Positions 25,192-43,760 of a stretch of 64,000 nt of DNA are shown piece by piece. Each line of letters opens with the position of its first letter. The first letter of the stretch is position 1. Origin of the DNA: a bacterium (GTDB lineage Bacteria > Myxococcota > UBA727 > JAUIJE01); assembly GCA_030431455.1 (NCBI GenBank), contig JAUIJE010000005.1, positions 451,460-515,459 of the forward strand, given 5' to 3'. Below the pieces are notes generated by a model. The model was not told the DNA's origin. It did not search any database and saw only the letters and a list, made by a program, of their open reading frames with translations. The translations under genes were made by a program, and so were the position numbers.

Positions 25192-25743
25192 ATGCGCCCA
25201 TTGTTGCCGGTTGTTGCCGCCCTCGCCTTTGCCGCCTCCGGCGCCCTGGCCGTCCCCACCGCCCCGCCCCGGCCCACCAAGGCGCGCCCGCACGCGGCCA
25301 AGACCACCAAAAAACGCATCAACCTCGACGTGCAGAACGCCGACATCCGCAACGTGGTGCGCCTCATCGGCGACACCTCTGGGCAGAACTTCGTCATCGG
25401 CGACGACGTCAAAGGCCGCGTGACGATCAAGCTGCGCAACGTGCCCTGGGACGAAGCCCTCGACGTCATTCTCGCCACCAAAGACCTGGGCAAGACCCAG
25501 CACGGCGACAACATCATCCGCATCGCCCCCCGCACCGTGCTCGAAGAGGAGCGCGCGCGCCGCCTCGACCGCGCCGACGAGTGCCAGGAAAAGGGCCCGC
25601 TCACCACCCGCCTCATCCCCGTCAACTACGGCCGGGCCGCGGACATGGCCCCGTTGGTCAAGGCCACTCTCACCAAGCGCGGTACAGTGACATTTGATGA
25701 GCGCACCAACACCCTCATCGTGCGCGACGTCGACTGTCCCTGA
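25192..25743 (+). CDS. Short exported protein made of secretin N-terminal domains only
   Basis: 183 residues from ATG 25192 (AGGAGGTCATC upstream). Signal peptide ending GALA, then a basic Pro-rich linker. Residues 42-105 match the STN domain of PilQ-type secretins (INLDVQNADIRNVVRLIGDT, KGRVTIKLRNVPWDEALDVIL), and residues 120-180 match the first secretin N domain (LIPVNYGRAADMAPLVKATL, TVTFDERTNTLIVRDV). The protein then stops, so the second N domain and the membrane-spanning secretin barrel are absent. The stop codon adjoins the convergent kinase stop. Either a specialised periplasmic secretin-like fragment or a truncated pilQ-like gene; no barrel remnant follows. Confidence 0.8.
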   Translation: MRPLLPVVAALAFAASGALAVPTAPPRPTKARPHAAKTTKKRINLDVQNADIRNVVRLIGDTSGQNFVIGDDVKGRVTIKLRNVPWDEALDVILATKDLGKTQHGDNIIRIAPRTVLEEERARRLDRADECQEKGPLTTRLIPVNYGRAADMAPLVKATLTKRGTVTFDERTNTLIVRDVDCP

Positions 25744-31650: not shown

Positions 31651-33120
31651 CTACTCGAGCCACGAAAACGGGTTGACGAACACCCCGACGAGCCCGAGCA
31701 CCACCCCGGAGGCCACCGCCCCGGGGAGGATAAAGTCGGCCGCATCCAGCTTGTAGTTGGCGCTGGTCGGCATCAACACATCCGCGGCCAGGCCGGCGCC
31801 GGCCACGGTCACACCACACGCCACGAACCCCCAGCGCCACACGTGCTTGGCGATGGTGGTGCCGCTCATGCCCTCGTCGGGCTCGACCACCGCGGGCTTG
31901 GTCTCGGCGCGCAGACCGCTCGGCTTGTTGTCGCCGTCGGTGATCATGCGGCGCCGCGGCGCGGGGTCGTCGGCGGGCGCGCCGGCGTCGGCGGCGTCCG
32001 CGGCGGGGCGGTTGTCGGCGGCCAAGCGGCGGCCCTCGGCGGGGGGGTCAGGCTCCTGGGTGGACGGCTCGGCCGCGGGGACGTCCTCGTTCTGGGCCGC
32101 GAGGGCGTGCTGGGCGAGCAGGTCGCTGAGCGCCTCGCGCACAAACCGCGTGACCGCCTTTTCGCCCTGTACGGTGCCGCTCACCTCGCCGATCTTCGCC
32201 TCGCCCTTGGTGCGCACGAGCGTGAGGGTGATGCGCACCCGGTCCCGCTCGGACTTGAGGTCCGAGCGCAGCATGACCCCGGCGCCCATCACCGGGGCGA
32301 GACACACCGGCTGCGGGTTGCACACGGGCTGGCCGGTCTTGACCAAGTGGCCGATGGCCTCGTCGGGGTGGTGCACCGACAGGCCGCCGGCCTTGACCAG
32401 CTCTTCTTTGAGAATGCGATTGTATTGCCGCACAAACGTCGCGCTCACCCCGCGGGCGGCGGGGTCGAGCACCAGCAACGTCTGGTGGTCGAGCGCGGTC
32501 CGGGCGGGGGGGGCGGACGCGCCGGGGCGGCCCTGCACCGGGATGGGGTTCGGCTTGGGCGTGGGCGCGGGCGCCGGCGCCGGCGCGGCCGGGGCCGGGG
32601 TCTTGGCCGGGGCGGGGGCCGGGGCCGCCGGCTTGGTGTCGGGCTTGTCCTTGAGCGCGGCCACCTGCCGGGACGCGTAGTCGATGAGTTTCTCTTGGCC
32701 CTTGCGGTTTTCCACCACCAGGTACCGCAAGAACAGGTCGCGGGCGGCGTCGTTGTTGCCGCTCAACCGTTCGGTCTCGGCGAGGCCGAACAGCGCGCTG
32801 GGCTCATCCTTGAACGCCTTGAGCACCCGCCGGTAGGTGTCCTTGGCCGCGTCGAAGTTGCCGCCCCGCCGTCGACAAAGCGCGGCGTTGACCAGCGGCT
32901 TGGACCAGCTGCCGTCGAGCTTGTAGGACTCTTCGAACAGCAACGCGGCGGCGTCGTATTGCTCCGCCGCGGCCAGGGCTTTGGCCCGGTCAAACACCAG
33001 CTGGGCCTGCTCACGTTTTTCCGCCGCGGTCTGGGCCGAGGCCGCGCTGGCCACGAACAGGATGACAACGAGCAGCCCGCGCAGACCGCGGACGCGACGA
33101 AGAAGAATATTCTGGGTCAT
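31651..33120 (-). CDS. TPR-containing membrane protein, last gene of the lipoprotein operon
   Basis: 489 residues from ATG 33120, overlapping the previous stop as ATGA (an ATG two codons earlier is also possible). Signal peptide to ASAQ; TPR-like helices at about 35-150 (LVFDRAKALAAAEQYDAAALLFEESYKL). A long Pro/Ala linker (PAPAPAKTPAPAAPAPAPAP) leads to a domain at 205-335 reminiscent of TolB/CsgG-type N domains (HQTLLVLDPAARGVSATFVRQYN, RVRITLTLVRTKGEAKIGEVSGTV). Two C-terminal hydrophobic segments end VFVNPFSWLE. Myxobacterial proteins of this build are common but uncharacterised. Confidence 0.75.
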   Translation of the reverse strand: MTQNILLRRVRGLRGLLVVILFVASAASAQTAAEKREQAQLVFDRAKALAAAEQYDAAALLFEESYKLDGSWSKPLVNAALCRRRGGNFDAAKDTYRRVLKAFKDEPSALFGLAETERLSGNNDAARDLFLRYLVVENRKGQEKLIDYASRQVAALKDKPDTKPAAPAPAPAKTPAPAAPAPAPAPTPKPNPIPVQGRPGASAPPARTALDHQTLLVLDPAARGVSATFVRQYNRILKEELVKAGGLSVHHPDEAIGHLVKTGQPVCNPQPVCLAPVMGAGVMLRSDLKSERDRVRITLTLVRTKGEAKIGEVSGTVQGEKAVTRFVREALSDLLAQHALAAQNEDVPAAEPSTQEPDPPAEGRRLAADNRPAADAADAGAPADDPAPRRRMITDGDNKPSGLRAETKPAVVEPDEGMSGTTIAKHVWRWGFVACGVTVAGAGLAADVLMPTSANYKLDAADFILPGAVASGVVLGLVGVFVNPFSWLE

Positions 33121-34394
33121 AGACATTGGCTGTTGTCGATGGGGTTCACGTCGGAGCAGTCACCACACTCGAGACAAAAGACACAGTCGGCCGAAGACGA
33201 CGACGGACAGTCGCTGTCCACCGCGCCACAGCCACAGTCGCAGCCGTCGCCGGCCCCGTAGTAGTTGGCCGAGCATGTCCAGGCCGCGGGCACGCCGCCC
33301 CCGCCGCCCCCGTCATCACACTGGCTGTTGTCGAAGGGGTCGACGTTGGCGCAGTCCCCGTCGGCGCAGCTGGTGCAGTAGTCGCACCAGGTCGCGGTGG
33401 TGCCGGTGCAGTCCGGGTCGACAACCCCGCACCCGCAGTCGCAGCCGTCCCCGGCATCGTAGAACGAAGCCAAGCAGGTCCACCCCGCGGGCGGCTGGTT
33501 GCCCCCGCCGCCCCCGCCGCCCTCGACGAAGGTGGCCGAACACGCGAGCCCAAACTCCGCGACCACCTCCAGCGACGTCACCGTGTACCCGTTGCCAAAC
33601 TCATCGATGCACTGGTGGCCCCATTCCTGAAAGCTCCACCCCGGAGCTGCATAAGCATTGAGCAGCACGAACGTGGTCTGCTTGAACTCCCACTCACAGT
33701 CGGCCTTGCCGTTGCCACACTCGATGCCCGACGGCGTCGACATCACCGTGCCCTCCCCGCGCACGTCGAACCGGAACGGGAAGTAGGTCGCATCGTCGAA
33801 GCGCGCCCGGCATGACGTATCCTCGTAGGCGGTGGCCACGGTGTCCGGGGCTTGTCCCGCGCAGTCGCCGCTCCACTCGAGGAAGGCCGGGGCCCGGCTG
33901 TCCACCGCGAGGAACACCTGGGACCCCGCCTGCACCTCGAGGGTACAGACCTCGTCGGTGCGGCAGACCTCGTCGCCCGGGGTGATGTGCACCGAGCCGG
34001 GGCCTTCGACCTCGAGCCGAAACGTCGCCGGCTCGGTGATGGGGTCGCCCACCATCCACCGGCGGAACTGGGCGGTGCAGCTTTCGCTTCCCCCCTCGAC
34101 CTCGTAGCGGGCTTGGGTGGGCATCTCTTCGTCGGCCACGCAGTCGCCGACCCACTCCTCGAACACCCAGCCATCCACCGGCACCGCCGCGAGCTGAATC
34201 AAGTCCCCGACGTAGAAATCTCCCCGGCAGCGACCGGCCTGGCAGGCGATGCCCGCCGGGCGCGACAAGATCTCCCCCGCCCCGTCGAGCCCGACCTCCA
34301 CCGCGATGGTGTCCTCGGCGTCGTCACCATTGGTGCACGCGCTGACGGCCAACACCATCACCGCCCCCCACATCGTCCACCGTGAACGGATCAT
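33117..34394 (-). CDS. Lipoprotein with InlB-type repeats and duplicated Cys-rich modules
   Basis: 425 residues from ATG 34394 with AAGGAGG upstream (34401-34407). Lipobox VSAC. Residues 25-290 hold four divergent InlB B-repeat-like units, each with a Trp-rich core and a Cys near the end (GWVFEEWVGDC, PAFLEWSGDC, GWSFQEWGHQC). A Gly run separates two copies of a Cys-rich module: WTCLASFYDAGDGCDCGCG and WTCSANYYGAGDGCDCGCG, each ending DNSQC. The Cys pattern suggests disulfide-rich surface domains. The start shares one base with the stop of the previous gene (TGATG). Confidence 0.8.
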   Translation of the reverse strand: MIRSRWTMWGAVMVLAVSACTNGDDAEDTIAVEVGLDGAGEILSRPAGIACQAGRCRGDFYVGDLIQLAAVPVDGWVFEEWVGDCVADEEMPTQARYEVEGGSESCTAQFRRWMVGDPITEPATFRLEVEGPGSVHITPGDEVCRTDEVCTLEVQAGSQVFLAVDSRAPAFLEWSGDCAGQAPDTVATAYEDTSCRARFDDATYFPFRFDVRGEGTVMSTPSGIECGNGKADCEWEFKQTTFVLLNAYAAPGWSFQEWGHQCIDEFGNGYTVTSLEVVAEFGLACSATFVEGGGGGGGNQPPAGWTCLASFYDAGDGCDCGCGVVDPDCTGTTATWCDYCTSCADGDCANVDPFDNSQCDDGGGGGGVPAAWTCSANYYGAGDGCDCGCGAVDSDCPSSSSADCVFCLECGDCSDVNPIDNSQCL

Positions 34395-35026
34395 CACGTG
34401 CCTCCTTGGTCGGCGGCGCTCTCGGGGGTCAAGCACAGGGCGTTGCTGCTGTGGCCACGCTCGTCTTTGACCTGGAGCACCGCCTCCTCGACGTCAATGT
34501 TGGACGCGCAGAACGAAAATCGCACCCGGTACACCGGCTCGTCGTCCGGCGACAACAACACGTCGGTGGTCCACGACAACACCTCGGCTTGCTCGCCCCC
34601 GGCCAGGAACAGGGTCACGTCCTGCCCGAGGTCGAATGGGTTGGGCACGCCGTCGTAGTCATCGCGAAAGCTCACGTCGTCCTCGACGTCGACCAACGCG
34701 GCCTCGATCACCACCTCGTCGGTGCCGCTCTTGCAGGTATCGAGCTGGGCGGGGGCGAACACCGGCTCGTCGTAGGGAAACAGCAGCGGCCCCTTGGTGT
34801 CTCGCCCCGGCATCTCCGCCGCCAACGAACAGTCCGCCACCGTGTCCGGCCCCACGCACTGGCCTTTGCCCGCGTAGCTGCTGCAGATGTTCTCGCCCCG
34901 GGCACACAGCCAGCAAAACGCGGCTTCCTCTTCGTACAGGGCGTGGTGCACCCCGAAGCTGTTGGCCAGCCCACACGCCGAAAGCGCGCCCAGCGCCGCC
35001 ACCGAAAGGACCCAACGCAGCATCAT
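34394..35026 (-). CDS. Lipoprotein of unknown function
   Basis: 210 residues from ATG 35026, overlapping the upstream stop as ATGA. Signal with lipobox LSAC (MLRWVLSVAALGALSAC). The next segment is Cys-rich (FCWLCARGENICSSYAGKGQCVGPDTVADC). The rest is beta-rich with an Asp-rich core (VEDDVSFRDDYDGVPNPFDLGQDVTLFL), ending SNALCLTPESAADQGGT. No family recognised. Its position suggests a subunit of the same envelope assembly as its neighbours. Confidence 0.75.
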   Translation of the reverse strand: MMLRWVLSVAALGALSACGLANSFGVHHALYEEEAAFCWLCARGENICSSYAGKGQCVGPDTVADCSLAAEMPGRDTKGPLLFPYDEPVFAPAQLDTCKSGTDEVVIEAALVDVEDDVSFRDDYDGVPNPFDLGQDVTLFLAGGEQAEVLSWTTDVLLSPDDEPVYRVRFSFCASNIDVEEAVLQVKDERGHSSNALCLTPESAADQGGT

Positions 35027-35745
35027 TGGCACTCGCTCACGGGCCCGTCGCCGTTTTCGTAGAAGCGGTTGTTGCCTTGGGCAAAATCGGGAACCGCGAC
35101 GTCGCCCACGCAACCGCGAACGAGGATGCCCCAGTGTTCGTTGTCGCGGAAGGTGGAGTTGGTGATGGCGGGGGCTTGGTTGGAGCCGTCGAGACCGAGC
35201 ACGCCCAACCCGTGCACCGCGCGTTCGATGATGACGTAGTCCAGCACCGACGCGGCGTCGGGACCGGCGAAGAGGTTGAGCCCCCCTTGGTTGAGCCCGC
35301 CAAAGCCGCCTTGGGTGTTGTCGTCGGAGGTGAACAGGACCTCCGCGCCCTCGACCCCCGCGGCCACCAGCTGCGACGACGGCGTGGTGTCGATGCGCGA
35401 TCCCCGCACGATGCGGACCTCGGCCCCGGTCTCGACGGTGAGGGTGGCCCCATCCGGCACGGTGAGCACCGCCTCCACGACGTGGGGCGAGTCCGCGCAC
35501 GCCCATGTCTCGTCGCCGGACAGCGCGTCGTGCATGGTGCCCGGCCCGTCGACGCAACTGTGGTCGCAGTCGGCGACCTTGTACCACTCCTCGCCGTTGC
35601 ACCGGATGAGCACCTGCTCTTCGCATTGCTCTTCGCCGATGGTGTCGCAGGGCAAGCCGAGCTGGGAGTCCCCACAGGCCCCCGCGGTCAACAGCAGCCC
35701 CACCACCGCCACCGGCCCGGTGGCTCTCCATGATTGCCCGGTCAT
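35023..35745 (-). CDS. Lipoprotein with right-handed beta-helix
   Basis: 240 residues from ATG 35745, one base after the upstream stop. Lipobox TAGAC. A short Cys-rich N-terminal part (LPCDTIGEEQCEEQVLIRCNGEEWYKVADCDHSC) is followed by a parallel beta-helix (LTVPDGATLTVETGAEVRIVRG, SQLVAAGVEGAEVLFTSDDN, NSTFRDNEHWGILVRGC). Such helices bind or cleave glycans or serve as rigid spacers; no catalytic residues are evident in so short a helix. Confidence 0.78.
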   Translation of the reverse strand: MTGQSWRATGPVAVVGLLLTAGACGDSQLGLPCDTIGEEQCEEQVLIRCNGEEWYKVADCDHSCVDGPGTMHDALSGDETWACADSPHVVEAVLTVPDGATLTVETGAEVRIVRGSRIDTTPSSQLVAAGVEGAEVLFTSDDNTQGGFGGLNQGGLNLFAGPDAASVLDYVIIERAVHGLGVLGLDGSNQAPAITNSTFRDNEHWGILVRGCVGDVAVPDFAQGNNRFYENGDGPVSECQ

Positions 35746-35746
35746 G

Positions 35747-37396
35747 TCACAGCTCGAAAATCAGGTAGCGCAACACCGCGTCCTCGGGACCGTCGAGGAC
35801 CTCGACCTCGCCCGTGGTGGCATCGCTCTCTTGGTGAAAGGAGGTGAACACCACCCGGCCCCCCACCCCCACCGGCCCGTCGGTGAACCCGACGGTGACG
35901 GGGGTGTTCTCGAGGGTGGCGATGGTGTCGTTGACGTAATAGGGCACGTCGCCCTGCAGGTACACGGTGGTGCCGGGGGCGACCTCTTGGATCAGGGCGT
36001 AGAAGCCGAAATTGAAGTCAATGTCGATGCGGTCTTGACCGGCGAATTGGGCCAAGCCGAGGTCGGCCACGTCGGTCTGGATCACCCCATCGACGCCGAA
36101 CTCGGCGGCGCTGTTGTCGCTGTCCGCGAACAGAAAATCGATGCGATCCGGCCAGGTCAGCTCGATGATGTCGTAGGCCTGATCGCTCACGTACAGGCTG
36201 CCCCCCGACTGCACGAACTGGCGGAGGTTGGCCGCCACCACCGGGTCGGGGGTCCCAACGAACTCGAGCTCGGACACGCCACAGTTGATGAACACCGCGT
36301 CGTACTCGGCCAGCGCCGCGTAGTCGCCGAAGATGTCCGCGGCCCACAACGCGCCGGGCTCGGTGGGGTTGCCGGAGGCCACGGTGATGTCCGCGAGGTC
36401 CATGCGCTCGAGCACGTTTTGGATCTTGTCGTAGAAGCCATCGATGACGAGGTAGCGCGCACCCCCGTCGGGGATGAGGGTGGTGCAGTCGCCGAGTTCG
36501 CCCGCCAGCGCGGTGCCGTCCGGGTTGTCGACCACGGTGAACACTTCGACGTCGGCCCAACTGTAGAAAAAGTCGCCGCGCTCCGCCCGGACCTGCACGG
36601 TGCGGGGGGCAGGAATGCCCGCGAGCAAAAACGCCCCCGTCTCGTCGGTCTCGGTCTCGAACACCGCGCCGTCGATGTCCTCGGTCAAGAACACCCGCAC
36701 CCCGGCCAGCCCCGCATCGGCGTCCGGGTCGGTGCACACCCGCCCGGTGATCTTGCCGGTGGTGTTGGGGTCGGGGGGTTGGCAGAACATCTGCTGCGGT
36801 TCGAGCAAGGTCTGTTCGCCGTCCTTGACCTCGACCTGGTGGGTGCGGCTGTAGCCCGGGGCCTGGACGTAGACCACGTGCACCCCCACCGGCACGTCGG
36901 GGAGCGAGAAGTTGCCCTCGGCGTCGGACACCGTCTCCCGGCGGCTCCCGTCGGGGAGCTGCACGCTGACGGTGGCGTCGGCGACAAAGCTGCCCACGTG
37001 CCGGTTGCAGATTTGGCCCACGATCTCGCCCGTGCCCGGCGGGTAGGCGAGCTCGCGGCAGGCGCTGTCCTCGAACACCGCCACCTCGTGCGGCTGCACC
37101 GTGAGGTCGAACTCCACCGAGAACGTGTCCCCCCGGGCGTGGAACGTGTGGGTGCCGTCGGCAATGTTCCTGATCTCAAACGCGCCGGTCTCGTCGGTGG
37201 TGTCCGTCCGGTCGGTCTCAAAGCCGGCCCCGTCGGTGTACGTGACCGAGACCTCGACCCCCTCCGCGACCTGGCCGGTCACCGGGTTGCAGATCGTGCC
37301 CGCCACCCCGCCGGTGACCTCCTCGAGGGGTTCGTCGGTGCACGCCGAGCACACCAGGGCCACCGCCCCCCACACCCACACGTGACGCCGCATCAT
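35747..37396 (-). CDS. Lipoprotein with three CarboxypepD_reg-like domains and a GATase/ThuA-like domain
   Basis: 549 residues from ATG 37396, overlapping the upstream stop as ATGA. Lipobox CSAC. Three regulatory-like beta-sandwich repeats fill residues 20-290, each with a C-N-x-x-T/H-G-type opening (VAGTICNPVTGQ, VGQICNRHVGSFV, ITGRVCTDPDAD) and ending DETGAFEI/DAEGNFSL/DETGAFLL. The C-terminal half has the Rossmann-like pattern of ThuA/class I amidotransferase-like proteins: ARYLVIDGFYDKIQNVLE, YDAVFINCGVSELEF, NLRQFVQSGGSLYVSDQAYD, GRVVFTSFHQE. The Cys in FINCGVSE is where a nucleophile would lie. Function unknown. Confidence 0.8.
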   Translation of the reverse strand: MMRRHVWVWGAVALVCSACTDEPLEEVTGGVAGTICNPVTGQVAEGVEVSVTYTDGAGFETDRTDTTDETGAFEIRNIADGTHTFHARGDTFSVEFDLTVQPHEVAVFEDSACRELAYPPGTGEIVGQICNRHVGSFVADATVSVQLPDGSRRETVSDAEGNFSLPDVPVGVHVVYVQAPGYSRTHQVEVKDGEQTLLEPQQMFCQPPDPNTTGKITGRVCTDPDADAGLAGVRVFLTEDIDGAVFETETDETGAFLLAGIPAPRTVQVRAERGDFFYSWADVEVFTVVDNPDGTALAGELGDCTTLIPDGGARYLVIDGFYDKIQNVLERMDLADITVASGNPTEPGALWAADIFGDYAALAEYDAVFINCGVSELEFVGTPDPVVAANLRQFVQSGGSLYVSDQAYDIIELTWPDRIDFLFADSDNSAAEFGVDGVIQTDVADLGLAQFAGQDRIDIDFNFGFYALIQEVAPGTTVYLQGDVPYYVNDTIATLENTPVTVGFTDGPVGVGGRVVFTSFHQESDATTGEVEVLDGPEDAVLRYLIFEL

Positions 37397-39213
37397 GGCC
37401 CCTCCCCCCCGTCGAGGGTGCACAGGTCGACCGAGAGCTCGACCTGGGACCCCTGCCAGGCATCGCAGGCCCGCCCGAAGAGCTGAATGGTGTTGTCCTC
37501 ACCGAGGTCGAAGCCGTCCTCGTGGCTGGGGTCTTGTTCGATGACTTCGCCCCCGAGCAACACGTTGACCCGGTTGGTCAAGTCGAGGTCCTCGGTGAGC
37601 TGCACGCTGCAGGCCGAGACCTGGCGACCGATGGCGCGGAACGCCTCCTGGAGCGTGTCGATGTCCGACGCCTCGATGTATTTGGTCGCGCCCGCGGCCG
37701 CGGTCCCGCCCGCCTCGGCCATGTCGTTGAGCACGTAGGCGAAGTTCTCCACGCCGGGGATGCCGATGACGTACGTGGCGATGCCGTCGGCGGCCAAGGC
37801 GCTGACCTCGGACACCGCCGCGGCGTTGTCGAGACAGAGCGAGCCATCGATGACCAGCGAGCAGTCCGCGTCGGGGTTGCTGCAGGTGCAGGTCAAGGGG
37901 TCGAGCAACGCGTTGCAGTTGGGGCCGCCGTCGGTGGCGAGCACCACCGCGATGTTCTTGCCCGAGCTGGCGAAGCCGTTCATGTAGCTGCGCACCGCGG
38001 CCAGGGTGCCGCTGGTGGGCGTGGCCCCGAGGGGGCTCGACTCGAACTCGTCAAGCTGGTCGGCGATGTCCCCCGCGCGCCCATACGCGGGCTCGACGTC
38101 GATGCCCCCCGCGCCGCAGCTGTCATCGTCGCGGTGGGGGAACAGCATCAGGCCGAACTCGATCGCGTCCTCGAGCTCCCCGGTCACGGCCTTGACCGCC
38201 TGCACCACGCCCGCCCACCGGGTGGTCCCGTAGCTCGGGGCCGCGTTGGACATCGAGCCCGACCGGTCGACGACCAACATCAACACGCCCTCTTGGCTCT
38301 CGGTGGGCAGCACCGCCTCCGAGATGCAGGTCTCTTCCACGCAGCCGCCCCCGTTGGTCACCGTGACCTCCTCGCCCCCGCGCACGATCGCCCCCAATGT
38401 AACTGTGCTCGTTCCGTCGCTGACGGTGATCGCCACCGAGCCGGGCGCCATCGGCCCCAATGTAAATGTCCCCTCGGTGTCGGTCAGGTCCTCATACACC
38501 TCACCGCGGCTGTCCTCGGCGGTGACCACCGCGCCCGCCCACGGGCCGCTGCTGCCGGGATCACAGAGCACCCCGCTGACCAGCCCGGAGTTGGCGTCCG
38601 GGGCCTGGCAGCTCTCGCCCCCGTCGAGGAAGAACACCTCGCCCGCCTCCACCGAAACCGGCCAAGCCCGGGAAAAGCCCGGCGCGGTGACCTGCACGAT
38701 GTGCTCGCCCTCGGGGATGTCCCGCAACAAGAACGCGCCGTTTTCGTCGGTGGTGGTCTCCACCGTGGTGCCATCGGCCAGGGTCAGGGTCACCGCCCCG
38801 TCCTGAATGAGGTCCCCGACGTGGCGGTTGCAGATCACGCCCTCGACGTCACCGACCCCCACGCCCACGTATTCGTCGCGGCAGGCGCTGTCCACGACGT
38901 GGGTGATCTGCTCGAACTCGATGGTCACGTCCATCGACCGGTCCTCGCGACCGACGTCGATGGTCAGCGGGTAGGTGCCGACGGTGACTTCCTCGAAGCG
39001 AAACGCGCCCCGCTCGTCGGTGACGGTCTCGAGCAACGTGCCCTGCACGTCGAGGTTGATGAGGGCCCCCCGCATGGGGAAGCCCGTGGTCTCAGAACAG
39101 GCCACCCCGGTGAGGTCGCCGAACTCGACGCGGTCGATGCGGCCGAGGTCCTCGCAGTTGCAGTGCGGCAACAGGAACAGGGCGAGCAGCCCGATCGTCT
39201 TTGTCGTTCGCAT
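37393..39213 (-). CDS. VWA-domain surface lipoprotein with CarboxypepD_reg-like repeats, first gene of the operon
   Basis: 606 residues. Signal peptide with likely lipobox LLPHC. Three regulatory-like beta-sandwich repeats occupy residues 30-270 (DERGAFRFEEVTVG, DENGAFLLRDIPEG, DTEGTFTLGPMAPG). The VWA domain follows with an intact MIDAS: VLMLVVDRSGSMSNAAPSYG (DxSxS), the Thr in LGATPTSGTL and the Asp in VLATDGGPNCN. A Cys-rich insertion (LDPLTCTCSNPDADC) lies inside it. VWA domains bind proteins through a divalent metal, so an adhesion or assembly role at the cell surface is likely. Related in repeat type to the next gene. Confidence 0.85.
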   Translation of the reverse strand: MRTTKTIGLLALFLLPHCNCEDLGRIDRVEFGDLTGVACSETTGFPMRGALINLDVQGTLLETVTDERGAFRFEEVTVGTYPLTIDVGREDRSMDVTIEFEQITHVVDSACRDEYVGVGVGDVEGVICNRHVGDLIQDGAVTLTLADGTTVETTTDENGAFLLRDIPEGEHIVQVTAPGFSRAWPVSVEAGEVFFLDGGESCQAPDANSGLVSGVLCDPGSSGPWAGAVVTAEDSRGEVYEDLTDTEGTFTLGPMAPGSVAITVSDGTSTVTLGAIVRGGEEVTVTNGGGCVEETCISEAVLPTESQEGVLMLVVDRSGSMSNAAPSYGTTRWAGVVQAVKAVTGELEDAIEFGLMLFPHRDDDSCGAGGIDVEPAYGRAGDIADQLDEFESSPLGATPTSGTLAAVRSYMNGFASSGKNIAVVLATDGGPNCNALLDPLTCTCSNPDADCSLVIDGSLCLDNAAAVSEVSALAADGIATYVIGIPGVENFAYVLNDMAEAGGTAAAGATKYIEASDIDTLQEAFRAIGRQVSACSVQLTEDLDLTNRVNVLLGGEVIEQDPSHEDGFDLGEDNTIQLFGRACDAWQGSQVELSVDLCTLDGGEGP

Positions 39214-39745: not shown

Positions 39746-41281
39746 TCAGTCGGCCACGAACCGGTCGCCGTCTCGATGACACGCGCCCGTCTCGCCGAGG
39801 TGGATCAACGAGGCGAGCACGCTCCGCGCGGCCAACGGCCACATCACCTGGGGCACGTCTTGGTAGGCGTGGGCCACGATGTCCTCGGGGGTGGCCGCGC
39901 CCAGCTCGCGCAGGGCCTCGCGCACCGCGTCCTGGCGGGCCTGGCGGTGGGCGATCTGCTCTTCGATCTTTTTGCGGCCGTCGGCGAGCAACGGGCCGTG
40001 GGACGGCACCAGCTGCTCGAACGGCAACGCCAGCGTGCGGCGCAGGCTCTCGAGGTACGTCCCGAGGTGTCCCTCGGGGGGATCGATCAGGATCGAGCCG
40101 GTCGAGGCCACCAGGTCGCCCGCGATCAGCGTGCGGCTGTGGGCGTCGTAGAACGCCAGGTGCCCGTCGGCGTGGCCGGGGGTGTACAGCGCGGTCAAGG
40201 TGCCGTCGTCGTCCGGCAATGTCACGTCATCGCCGTCGCCCAACGCGCGCTCGAGCGGCAGCCCGCAGAGCTTCCCGGTGTCGGCGTGGGCCCAGATGGG
40301 CAGGCCGTACTTTTTGGCCACCCGGGCCGCGTCCCCGGTGTGGTCGTGGTGGTGGTGGGTGAGCAGCACCGCCACCGGCCGGCGCCCTTGGGCCCGGAGC
40401 AGGGCCACCAGCGCGTCAAACCGTGCCCGCTCGTCGTCGTAGGGCGTGGCGGGGTCGATGATGAAGTACGTCTTCTTGCCGAACAGCACGGTGTTGGTGT
40501 GGGTGGCCGGCGGCAGCGTCGGGGTGCGAAACGGCTGAACGTACAGGCCTTGGATGATGTCTTGGGTCTCCGGCACATGCTCGGGGCGCACGCGCTTGAG
40601 CTGGTCGATGAGCGACGGGAGCGCGTGGTCGACACACCGGGCCAACGTCGTGACCACGTGGCGGATGGGGGGCAACAGGAGCGCCTCACCGGTATGCCAC
40701 TGCGCGCACAGGTCCGCCGGTGATGTCCAGTGAATGCCGTCGAGCTCGTCGAGCGGGGCGGTCCGGACCACGCGGGGGTCGTCGGGATCGAGCGGCAACA
40801 AAAACTGCCGCACCGCGAACGTCTTGGGCCGGGAGTCGGCGGTGATCCACAAGCCGAGCGGCAACAGGTCGGAATCGTCGAGGAACAGCTCGAGTTCGCG
40901 CAGGATGTCGAGGATGTCGTCGCCCCGCTCGACCCGGTCCACGAACCGGGCGCGCTTGTCCCCCCGGGCCGGCGCGCCGCGTTTGTCGGTGACGAACCAG
41001 TGGCCCACCTCTTCGCCCAGCTCGCGCATCGCGCAGGCGCGCTCGGCGATGGAGGCGGAGCCGTCCGAGAGCTCATTGACCAAGGGCAACGCCTCGTCGG
41101 TGTCGTCGACCCCGCCCCCGGGGAACGCCAGATATCGCGGATAGCTGCGCGCAGAATCCGTGCGCCGGCCCACCAGGACCTGGCCTCGTTTGTCCCGCGG
41201 AATCACCGCCGCGGCCCGGCGCCGGATGGTCTTGCCCGCACCCACGGCGGAAGTATGCCACGCCCGGCCCGGTTGACCCAT
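39746..41281 (-). CDS. Nudix-metallo-beta-lactamase fusion protein
   Basis: 511 residues from ATG 41281; starts at 41389 or GTG 41245 are also possible, none with a clear ribosome binding site. The N-terminal 230 residues form a Nudix domain: AFPGGGVDDTDE, an insertion, then CAMRELGEEVGHW, keeping REXXEEXG. The C-terminal half is a metallo-beta-lactamase fold of the LACTB2/glyoxalase II type with THHHHDHTGD at 308-317, and further ligands in YTPGHADGHLAF, IAGDLVAS and VPSHGP, so the zinc site is complete. It may hydrolyse a nucleotide-linked substrate and then an ester or nucleic acid (inference). Divergent from the cytochrome gene. Confidence 0.85.
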   Translation of the reverse strand: MGQPGRAWHTSAVGAGKTIRRRAAAVIPRDKRGQVLVGRRTDSARSYPRYLAFPGGGVDDTDEALPLVNELSDGSASIAERACAMRELGEEVGHWFVTDKRGAPARGDKRARFVDRVERGDDILDILRELELFLDDSDLLPLGLWITADSRPKTFAVRQFLLPLDPDDPRVVRTAPLDELDGIHWTSPADLCAQWHTGEALLLPPIRHVVTTLARCVDHALPSLIDQLKRVRPEHVPETQDIIQGLYVQPFRTPTLPPATHTNTVLFGKKTYFIIDPATPYDDERARFDALVALLRAQGRRPVAVLLTHHHHDHTGDAARVAKKYGLPIWAHADTGKLCGLPLERALGDGDDVTLPDDDGTLTALYTPGHADGHLAFYDAHSRTLIAGDLVASTGSILIDPPEGHLGTYLESLRRTLALPFEQLVPSHGPLLADGRKKIEEQIAHRQARQDAVREALRELGAATPEDIVAHAYQDVPQVMWPLAARSVLASLIHLGETGACHRDGDRFVAD

Positions 41282-41309
41282 CCAAGAGGGCGGACTCATC
41301 ATCCCCGCG

Positions 41310-43760
41310 ATGTCGTTCACGCCGAACATCGGGTCACGGGCGCGCCCTCGCCGGGCGTGGGCGGTGGCGTTGCTCATCGAGGTGCTCACCGCGCTCTTGA
41401 TGCTTCGTCACGATTTGGCCCCCAAGACGCGCGACCTCATCGTGGGCATCCACATTGTGCTCGGCTTCGTCACCTTGTTGTCCGTGCTGCTCGTGGGCCT
41501 GCGGGCGGCGCTGCAACGGCGCGGCCCGCTCGAGGTCGGGCTGTGGCTGGTGTTTGTCTCCGGGGTGGTGGCCACGGGTTTTGGCGCGAGCCGGGCGTTC
41601 GCCTTGATCGGGGCCGCCCACGCGGTGATCGCCACCGTGTTCATCGTGGCCCGGCTGGTGCCGCGGCGGTTGGCGTTTGCGATCATCCCGTTCGCGGCCG
41701 CGATCGTCGGGTCGCTCAGCTACGGGCTGACCGCGGAGCGCGCCCCCACCGTCGAGCCGGTGTACCCCACCGGGCCCATCGACCCGACCCCGCCCGTCGG
41801 GTACGTCGACACCAGCGCCCTGCTGCCCGGCGACGCCGCGCGGTTCACGGACGTGACCCGCTGCGACGTCTGCCACGCCGCGCTCACCGACGACTTCCAC
41901 CGCTCGGTGCACCGGCACGCGTCGCTGACCAATCCCTACTATGTCTCGTCCGTGCGCCGGCTCATCGACGAGCGCGGGCCGGACGCGGCCGCGGCCTGCG
42001 CGGGTTGCCACGACCTCGGACTTGTCGCCCACGGTCGGTTCCCCGATGCGCTCACCGTCGAGCAGCCCGATGTTCCGCCCCGGGCGGACATCGGCATCCC
42101 CTGCCTCGCCTGCCACGGCGCCACCCAGGTCCGCTCCCAACGCGGCAATGGCGCGCTCGCCCTCGCCTTGCCCCGCGACCCCATCGTGACCTCCGACGGG
42201 CTCGAACACTTCTTACATTTTCTGCTCACCTACGCCGACCCCCGCGCCCACCGCGAACAGATGATGCGCCCCGACACCAAGAGCTCGACCCGGTGCGGCA
42301 CGTGCCACCAAGCGTTCCTACACGAGGGGATCAATGGCATTGCCCACACCCGGGGCCAGACCGAGCGAGACGACCACCGGAACTCCGCGTACTTTCCCGC
42401 CGCCGGTCCCACCGGGCGCCTGCCCCTCGACGTCGGCCCGCAAAGTTGCGTCGACTGCCACATGAGCGAAGGCGCCCAGGGGCACGCCACGTTCGCGGCC
42501 CACACCGCCCTCGCCACCTTCCGCGGAGATGCCGCCGCGGTGGACGCGATCACCGCCCAGCTGCAGCCCGAAGACCCCTTTGTCCGGCTCTCCTGGGTGA
42601 GCGTGGACCGGGGCGTGGTCCGGCCCTCGGACGGGCGGTTGCCGGCCCGCAACTCGTCGGCCCAGCTGCATTTGTTGATCACCAACGAAAGGGTTGGCCA
42701 CGCGTTCCCCGCGGGGACCAAGGACACCCACGACCTGCGGCTCGAGGTCTCGTTCGTGGACGAAGACGGCCGCAGCCTGCCCTTGGCCGACGACGCCCCC
42801 CACGCGCTGGGCACGGCCATGCTCGACGCCGCGGGGGCGCCCAACATCCGCCACGACACCCAATCTCTCTGGACCGCGCTGTTCGAGCACAGCCTGCTGC
42901 CCGGCCACGGTCACATCGTGCGCTACCAACTCGAGCGCGCCCCCAGCGAGGAGCGCCCGGTGCGCGCGGTGGCCCGGCTGGTCCACCGCAAGTTCCGTCC
43001 CGCGTTCTCCGCCGCGGTGGACGCGCCCCCCGCGCCCGAGGTGGTCATCGCCGACACCGCCGCGGCCCCGCCCCTGCCCGCCGCGGTGCGGCTCGCGCGG
43101 TACGCCGACGCGGCCGCGGCCAACTGGGAAGACGAGCTCGCCAAGGCCGCCATCGACGAGGCCAACTCCCACGTGCGGGGGCCGGAGGACGCGGTCGAGG
43201 TGCAACTCGCCCGCGCCCGGTTCCTGCTCGAGCGCAAACGCCAGTACGCGGTGGTGACCGACCTGCTCGCCGACGTGCCCGACCCCCGCGCCCGGGCCTT
43301 GCTCGGCCGGGCCCTGCTCGACGGGGGCAACGCCACCCGCGCCCGCGAGGTGCTCGAGGACCTGACCGAACGCTTCGGCAACGACCTGGAGCTGTTGCTG
43401 CGCACCGCCGAGGCCCGGCGCCGCACGGGCTCGCTCCCCGGCGCGCTGGAGCTCGTTGACGAGGTCATCGCCGCGGCCCCCGACCACTTCCGCGCGCTCC
43501 AGCTCGAGGTCGCCCTCGCCGGCGAGCTCGGGGACAAAGACCGCGCGCGACGCGCCCGCGAGCAGGCCGAGCGGGTGCGCCCCGACCGCGACGCCCAGCT
43601 CGCCGCGGTGGAGCGGCAAAAGCGCGATCAGGTCGCGGACCGGGAAGCGGACCGGGCCCACGTCCACCAGCTGCGCACCCAGGCCGCGGCGGCGGCGGCC
43701 CCCGCGCCCGCCCCGCTCCCGGGGTTGCCGGTGCCGTTTTCCCCGCGGCCCTCCCCGTGA
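41310..43760 (+). CDS. Membrane-anchored pentahaem cytochrome c with TPR tail
   Basis: 816 residues. Four or five transmembrane helices cover residues 15-140 (AWAVALLIEVLTALLML, LIVGIHIVLGFVTLLSVLLVGL, FAIIPFAAAIVGSLSYG). Five CXXCH haem sites follow: CDVCH (185), CAGCH (230), CLACH (265), CGTCH (329) and CVDCH (380), with further His residues available as distal ligands. Residues 400-560 are beta-rich and the last 200 are TPR-like helices (AREVLEDLTERFGNDLELLLRTAEARRRTGSLPGALELVDEVI). A periplasmic electron-transfer protein resembling the cytochrome c554/NapC-NrfH multihaem group is likely. Start ATG 41310 is chosen by its position before the first helix. Confidence 0.85.
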   Translation: MSFTPNIGSRARPRRAWAVALLIEVLTALLMLRHDLAPKTRDLIVGIHIVLGFVTLLSVLLVGLRAALQRRGPLEVGLWLVFVSGVVATGFGASRAFALIGAAHAVIATVFIVARLVPRRLAFAIIPFAAAIVGSLSYGLTAERAPTVEPVYPTGPIDPTPPVGYVDTSALLPGDAARFTDVTRCDVCHAALTDDFHRSVHRHASLTNPYYVSSVRRLIDERGPDAAAACAGCHDLGLVAHGRFPDALTVEQPDVPPRADIGIPCLACHGATQVRSQRGNGALALALPRDPIVTSDGLEHFLHFLLTYADPRAHREQMMRPDTKSSTRCGTCHQAFLHEGINGIAHTRGQTERDDHRNSAYFPAAGPTGRLPLDVGPQSCVDCHMSEGAQGHATFAAHTALATFRGDAAAVDAITAQLQPEDPFVRLSWVSVDRGVVRPSDGRLPARNSSAQLHLLITNERVGHAFPAGTKDTHDLRLEVSFVDEDGRSLPLADDAPHALGTAMLDAAGAPNIRHDTQSLWTALFEHSLLPGHGHIVRYQLERAPSEERPVRAVARLVHRKFRPAFSAAVDAPPAPEVVIADTAAAPPLPAAVRLARYADAAAANWEDELAKAAIDEANSHVRGPEDAVEVQLARARFLLERKRQYAVVTDLLADVPDPRARALLGRALLDGGNATRAREVLEDLTERFGNDLELLLRTAEARRRTGSLPGALELVDEVIAAAPDHFRALQLEVALAGELGDKDRARRAREQAERVRPDRDAQLAAVERQKRDQVADREADRAHVHQLRTQAAAAAAPAPAPLPGLPVPFSPRPSP

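Follow-up and report, generated by a model that had tools for sequence, protein, structure and literature searches.

Six consecutive minus-strand genes in a member of the Myxococcota (g1 to g6; genome of 7.7 Mb in 28 contigs) raise the question of whether a run of tightly joined genes for envelope proteins encodes one molecular machine, and of what kind. The window, the stretch of 64,000 nucleotides analysed here, carries these genes at positions 31651-39213. An initial annotation had described them as a single envelope operon matching no described system, the strict coupling of which would imply a fixed stoichiometry. The reading favoured by the present analysis, held at roughly even confidence, is that of a single mosaic operon for outer-membrane-anchored adhesion or recognition proteins, built from three recurrent sub-modules. 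As the annotation had supposed, no system of this composition was found in the open-licence literature and the profile libraries searched.

Layout and coupling of the operon

The genes and their junctions, with the basis of each assignment in brackets, are as follows.

31651-39213, minus strand: six-gene operon, g1 first at 39213 and g6 ending at 31651 (sequence)
37393-39213, minus strand: g1, probable lipoprotein with a VWA domain, 606 aa (Pfam, NCBIfam, alignment, tree)
37393-37396, minus strand: g1-g2 ATGA stop/start overlap (sequence)
35747-37396, minus strand: g2, lipoprotein, 549 aa (Pfam, alignments, family profiles)
35746, minus strand: g2-g3 1-base gap, TGA-C-ATG (sequence)
35023-35745, minus strand: g3, small Cys-rich lipoprotein of putative beta-helix type, 240 aa (family searches)
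35023-35026, minus strand: g3-g4 ATGA stop/start overlap (sequence)
34394-35026, minus strand: g4, small lipoprotein with the mature N-terminus CGLANS, 210 aa (sequence, searches)
34394-34398, minus strand: g4-g5 TGATG stop/start overlap (sequence)
33117-34397, minus strand: g5, lipoprotein of 426 aa with divergent InlB B-repeats and, at the C-terminus, two CDCGCG Cys modules (Pfam, module searches)
33117-33120, minus strand: g5-g6 ATGA stop/start overlap if g6 starts at 33120, a 10-nt overlap if it starts at the ATG at 33126 (sequence)
31651-33126 (or start at 33120), minus strand: g6, membrane-hairpin protein, 489 or 491 aa (Pfam, hydrophobicity segments, hairpin profile)

Read directly from the sequence, the junctions measure -4, +1, -4, -1 and -4 nt in the order of transcription, and all five agree with the overlaps and the 1-base gap initially annotated; a second in-frame ATG, at 33126, is a candidate start of g6. 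The listed ORF starts at 37423 (g2), 35731 (g4) and 34436 (g5) were rejected as placed too far upstream. A single junction of this tightness is ordinary in this genome, 94 of 344 co-directional junctions (about 27%) in 800 kb lying between -4 and +1 nt, a rate which, like the other base rates for this genome, derives from samples and which mechanical gene calling and start choice tend to inflate. Five in succession are exceptional, the longest run in the 800 kb being three, and this supports the single operon that had been proposed, the products of which are envelope-directed. Scans of the locus found no sigma-70-type or promoter-like site, and terminator signals were at chance level.

Junction coupling does not establish stoichiometry, and the fixed six-subunit arrangement drawn from it is unsupported. 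The order g1-g6 was absent from all others of the 77 genomes compared, among which relatives within the window's taxonomic order are few and several assemblies are fragmented; g4 is an orphan, g6 is without a full-length relative, and the ThuA-like and VWA stalk genes described below are often solitary in relatives. The initial annotation had named separate occurrence in most relatives as evidence against a unit, and this is largely what is seen for the whole six, but three sub-blocks nonetheless recur across family boundaries: VWA with g3-type genes (joined by a g2-type gene in one genome), the g1-g5 pair, and pairs of the g4/g6 type.

The window holds other genes of note outside the operon. 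Upstream, on the same strand, lies a predicted fusion of NUDIX, metallo-beta-lactamase and winged-helix domains (39746-41389), and positions 41310-43760 encode a protein of 816 aa in which a TPR region accompanies weak matches of multihaem cytochrome type (cytochrome c7, c554, MtrC/F-like). A 183-aa protein at 25192-25743 consists only of STN, GspD-N0-like and Secretin_N domains and has no secretin channel domain.

Two heads on a common stalk

The first gene product comprises three CarboxypepD_reg/transthyretin-like stalk repeats (PF13620, 88.3 bits against a gathering cut-off of 32.3), followed by the VWA domain and a Cys-rich C-terminal module. Its metal-binding MIDAS, annotated as intact, is so: D316-x-S318-x-S320, T398/T400 and D428 are invariant in 14 aligned rows, as are many Cys. 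The lipobox of g1, LLPHC, is degenerate, with His at -1; its relatives carry the canonical WPGC, SAC and GAC, and g1 is for this reason taken as a probable lipoprotein. The earlier description of the first five products as lipoproteins is thus clear for four and only probable for g1. In the window's genome, 32 of 934 sampled ORFs, a count that includes a few duplicates, carry poly(Asp-Gly) linkers 12 to 130 residues long (for example L100 8264-10804, L103 4820-6118, L109 7930-10482 and L163 13610-15577), in many cases directly behind a lipobox; 315 ORFs sampled from another genome, G006, contained none.

In the NCBIfam search g1 came closest to CglB, the adventurous gliding lipoprotein of Myxococcus (NF033757), with 86.5 bits and an E-value of 1.8e-24 over model positions 82-392 of 402, leaving the model's N-terminus outside the match; in the genome search the same model gave 76.1 bits, and the curated cut-off is 200. 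In both proteins the VWA domain carries a MIDAS and a Cys-rich module follows it at the C-terminus, but g1 differs in its three-repeat stalk, its seat in a lipoprotein operon and a score far under the cut-off. It is CglB-like and perhaps works like CglB, though by the tests made it is no member of that family. Against solved structures, the g1 profile matched best SpaC (6m3y/6m48; 1.4e-7) and the cell-wall-anchored surface protein 3txa (1.8e-5), which we take to be sortase-anchored VWA adhesins of Gram-positives, SpaC being a pilus protein. These share with g1 a VWA/MIDAS head and beta-sandwich stalk modules, whereas g1 would be anchored as a lipoprotein, in a diderm. A scan of the contig collection with g1 returned only one stalk-repeat match, in Plebeiobacterium.

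The second gene product carries the same three-repeat stalk (PF13620, 97.6 bits against 32.3), 41% identical to that of g1 over g1 residues 94-266, which span the second and third repeats, and places on it a C-terminal head of ThuA/DUF4159-like, class-I GATase-like type. The regulatory-like repeats annotated for g2 are matched directly; the likeness of the head to ThuA comes through relatives. The g2 head itself matched no Pfam family, ThuA (PF06283) included, which sets it apart from members of the ThuA superfamily; in an 18-sequence family built around it, ThuA was matched by two sequences (best 1.3e-5) and DUF4159 by four, with weak ThiJ-like matches besides. The presumed nucleophile elbow, placed by eye, reads GGSLYxSD, with the S-D invariant and Cys absent in all 18 sequences, and the head is probably a non-catalytic, sugar-binding-type fold. 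A search of the PDB with the head profile gave no significant match, and an AlphaFold2 model of the head from its single sequence was discarded at a mean pLDDT of 35.7. In the N-terminal module of Agd3, a ThuA/GATase1-like domain without a catalytic triad serves to bind polysaccharide (PMC7229062), a precedent from which the g2 head might plausibly bind sugar as well. Elsewhere, at L039 8439-12376 (G025:C131), two ThuA-headed stalk proteins stand in tandem, their ORFs overlapping.

Putative accessory surface proteins and their association with VWA genes

The close family of g3 is narrow, its strong matches being confined to the window's taxonomic order and adjoining a VWA gene. The beta-helix assignment of g3 finds weak backing through relatives, in that two of five family members match the right-handed beta helix (PF13229), at best at 8e-4, and g3 itself does not. 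A PDB search with g3 gave no match, and its single-sequence AlphaFold2 model (mean pLDDT 38.6) was discarded. In g5, by comparison with the family cut-off, the divergent InlB B-repeat (PF18998, an InlB-type Flg_new_2 repeat) is secure, at 43.1 bits against 23.6. The C-terminal Cys modules of g5 have the form WxC..(Y/F)..GDGCDCGCG..DPDC (window 33117-33480; also at L078-L088 and L090) and are scattered, with up to five copies per protein, over a further 12 or more secreted ORFs of this genome, which rules the module out as an operon-specific signal. One such secreted protein, at L086 2194-3957 (G000:C24, the window's own genome), has two CDCGCG modules and ends in a tail of MYXO-CTERM-like type, made up of Cys, a hydrophobic segment and RRRR.

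A VWA gene adjoins a g3-type gene in four genomes (G003, G006, G008 and G010), followed in G006 by a g2-type gene. In G008:C49 a VWA gene is coupled through ATGA to a gene whose 1335-aa product has six InlB-type repeats and two CDCGCG modules and carries a propeller-like tail. In a tree of the VWA and C-terminal regions, g1 is sister to this G008:C49 protein (support 99/98), and the g3-linked VWA proteins form a separate clade (100/100). On this placement, the likeliest reading is that two families have retained g1-g5 as a pair by descent, and that g3 elsewhere sits with a paralogous VWA gene.

A membrane-hairpin protein and a tagged lipoprotein

The last gene product has a signal peptide, TPR, a low-complexity Pro/Ala linker and a C-terminal hairpin of two transmembrane segments (residues 433-453 and 462-490) with the loop PTSxNxxLDxxDF. 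The TPR and the two hydrophobic segments stand as annotated; the TolB/CsgG-like domain is indirect, g6 itself having no TolB_N/CsgG-like profile match and its hairpin relatives matching DUF3280 (1.3e-5), TolB_N (0.015) and LpoB (0.04), all under cut-off. Across the operon, the VWA domain with its MIDAS, the CarboxypepD_reg and InlB repeats, the Cys modules, the TPR and the hydrophobic segments are confirmed directly, and the ThuA-like, beta-helix and TolB/CsgG-like assignments are backed through relatives only.

Neither full-length relatives of g6 nor, with the single 210-aa query, any relatives of g4 were found in the 77 genomes. Besides g6, a profile built on the hairpin, with its loop SPTSxNxxLDxxDFVGP, matches three proteins, at L068 in the same genome, L069 in G006 and L091 in G008, each encoded directly before a lipoprotein gene with overlapping stop and start. 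The mature N-termini of these partners read CGLVN, CGLLD or CGLAN, and that of g4 is CGLAN; unlike the adjoining pairs, g4 and g6 share an operon with g5 between them. A CGLx[ND] lipoprotein is thus present in the same operon at four of four known hairpin loci, and the motif is absent from the other predicted lipoproteins, about 185 in number (81 + 80 + 24 from sampled loci, some counted twice). Because attention was drawn to the motif by the first examples themselves, the association is provisional; 1.6 Mb sampled afterwards held no counter-example with the exact CGLx[ND]. One near miss is a CGLFVN lipoprotein (L100 8264-10804) with no hairpin neighbour, which falls outside the motif and had been missed by the lipobox filter.

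That membrane-hairpin proteins pair with CGLx[ND] lipoproteins is previously unremarked. Beyond the motif, the partner lipoproteins have unrelated bodies, namely a Kelch propeller, a Cys-rich domain, a weakly hydrolase-like domain and g4. A speculative and, as we judge it, unlikely extension is that the hairpin protein would be a dedicated sorting or anchoring factor reading the CGLx[ND] tag after the lipidated Cys, so that the tag rather than the fold would be the recognised element, with g4 and g6 as the part of a surface-adhesion complex that sits at the membrane. In Bacteroidota, the lipoprotein export signal (LES; PMC5080379), a short motif immediately following the lipidated Cys, decides the fate of a lipoprotein. 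The putative CGLx[ND] tag has the same position but, unlike the LES, it is rare among the lipoproteins sampled and goes with a hairpin protein encoded next to it.

What the operon may do

In the favoured reading of a mosaic adhesion operon, g1 and g2 would present two heads, one a metal-dependent VWA domain and the other ThuA-like, on a common three-repeat transthyretin-like stalk, with g3 and g5 as accessory surface proteins of the kinds that recur beside VWA genes. As a second, separate kind of pair, g4 and g6 would contribute a tagged lipoprotein and a protein that combines a membrane hairpin with periplasmic domains, g6 probably anchoring, delivering or coupling its lipoprotein partner, and the assembly would give the outer membrane an adhesive patch. 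The presence of the six-gene set in one genome of 77, the solitary ThuA and VWA stalk genes and the degenerate g1 lipobox speak against this reading. The sequence comparisons show the domain anatomy, the MIDAS, the common stalk, the recurring sub-blocks and the pairing of g4/g6 type; surface exposure, lipidation, adhesion, a physical complex, sugar binding and the role of g6 are inferred.

The same loss of the full order and the same solitary genes would be expected if the products were physically independent surface lipoproteins, co-transcribed as a grouping of convenience with no common complex, and about 27% of the genome's co-directional junctions are equally tight; we nevertheless regard this as rather unlikely, since the pairs of VWA with g3, of VWA with InlB/Cys proteins and of hairpin with CGLx[ND] proteins recur across families. 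It is clearly less probable that g1 fills the role of CglB in this organism and that the operon supplies a gliding machine with its adhesion components at the outer membrane. CglB is the VWA surface adhesin of gliding focal adhesions, recruited by Glt (PMC13104615), its model matches g1 over most of its length, and the window's genome encodes a GltJ-like protein (155 bits, under the cut-off of 450); g1, however, falls short of the CglB cut-off, the stalk is not part of CglB, and several such VWA proteins occur in many Myxococcota. Among the 77 genomes, equivalogs of CglB and GltJ that pass the cut-off are confined to other families of the phylum, those of CglB to a single one (f13; 19 of the 77) and never in the window's taxonomic order, a distribution that fits a Myxococcota-type lineage outside the Myxococcaceae. 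We give marginally less credence still to a ligand-processing or sensing system, in which the ThuA-like head would be enzymatic or ligand-sensing and g6 would relay binding across the periplasm. In the ThuA-like heads, a site could be formed by S-D and SFH(Q/N)E, which are conserved in the 18-sequence family, and the TPR and hairpin of g6 would span periplasm and membrane; against this stand the lack of Cys at the presumed elbow in the 18 relatives, the absence of any kinase, transporter or enzyme gene within the operon, and flanking genes that are unrelated (Nudix/metallo-beta-lactamase, thiolase).

On the mosaic adhesion reading, the operon gives a concrete and testable anatomy of surface lipoprotein adhesin sets in non-Myxococcaceae bacteria of the Myxococcota type, in which no CglB equivalog above cut-off was found. 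Surface-lipoprotein sorting in this phylum is, to our knowledge, little understood, and the pairing of hairpin proteins with CGLx[ND] lipoproteins would, if functional, represent a lipoprotein-handling route in the phylum.
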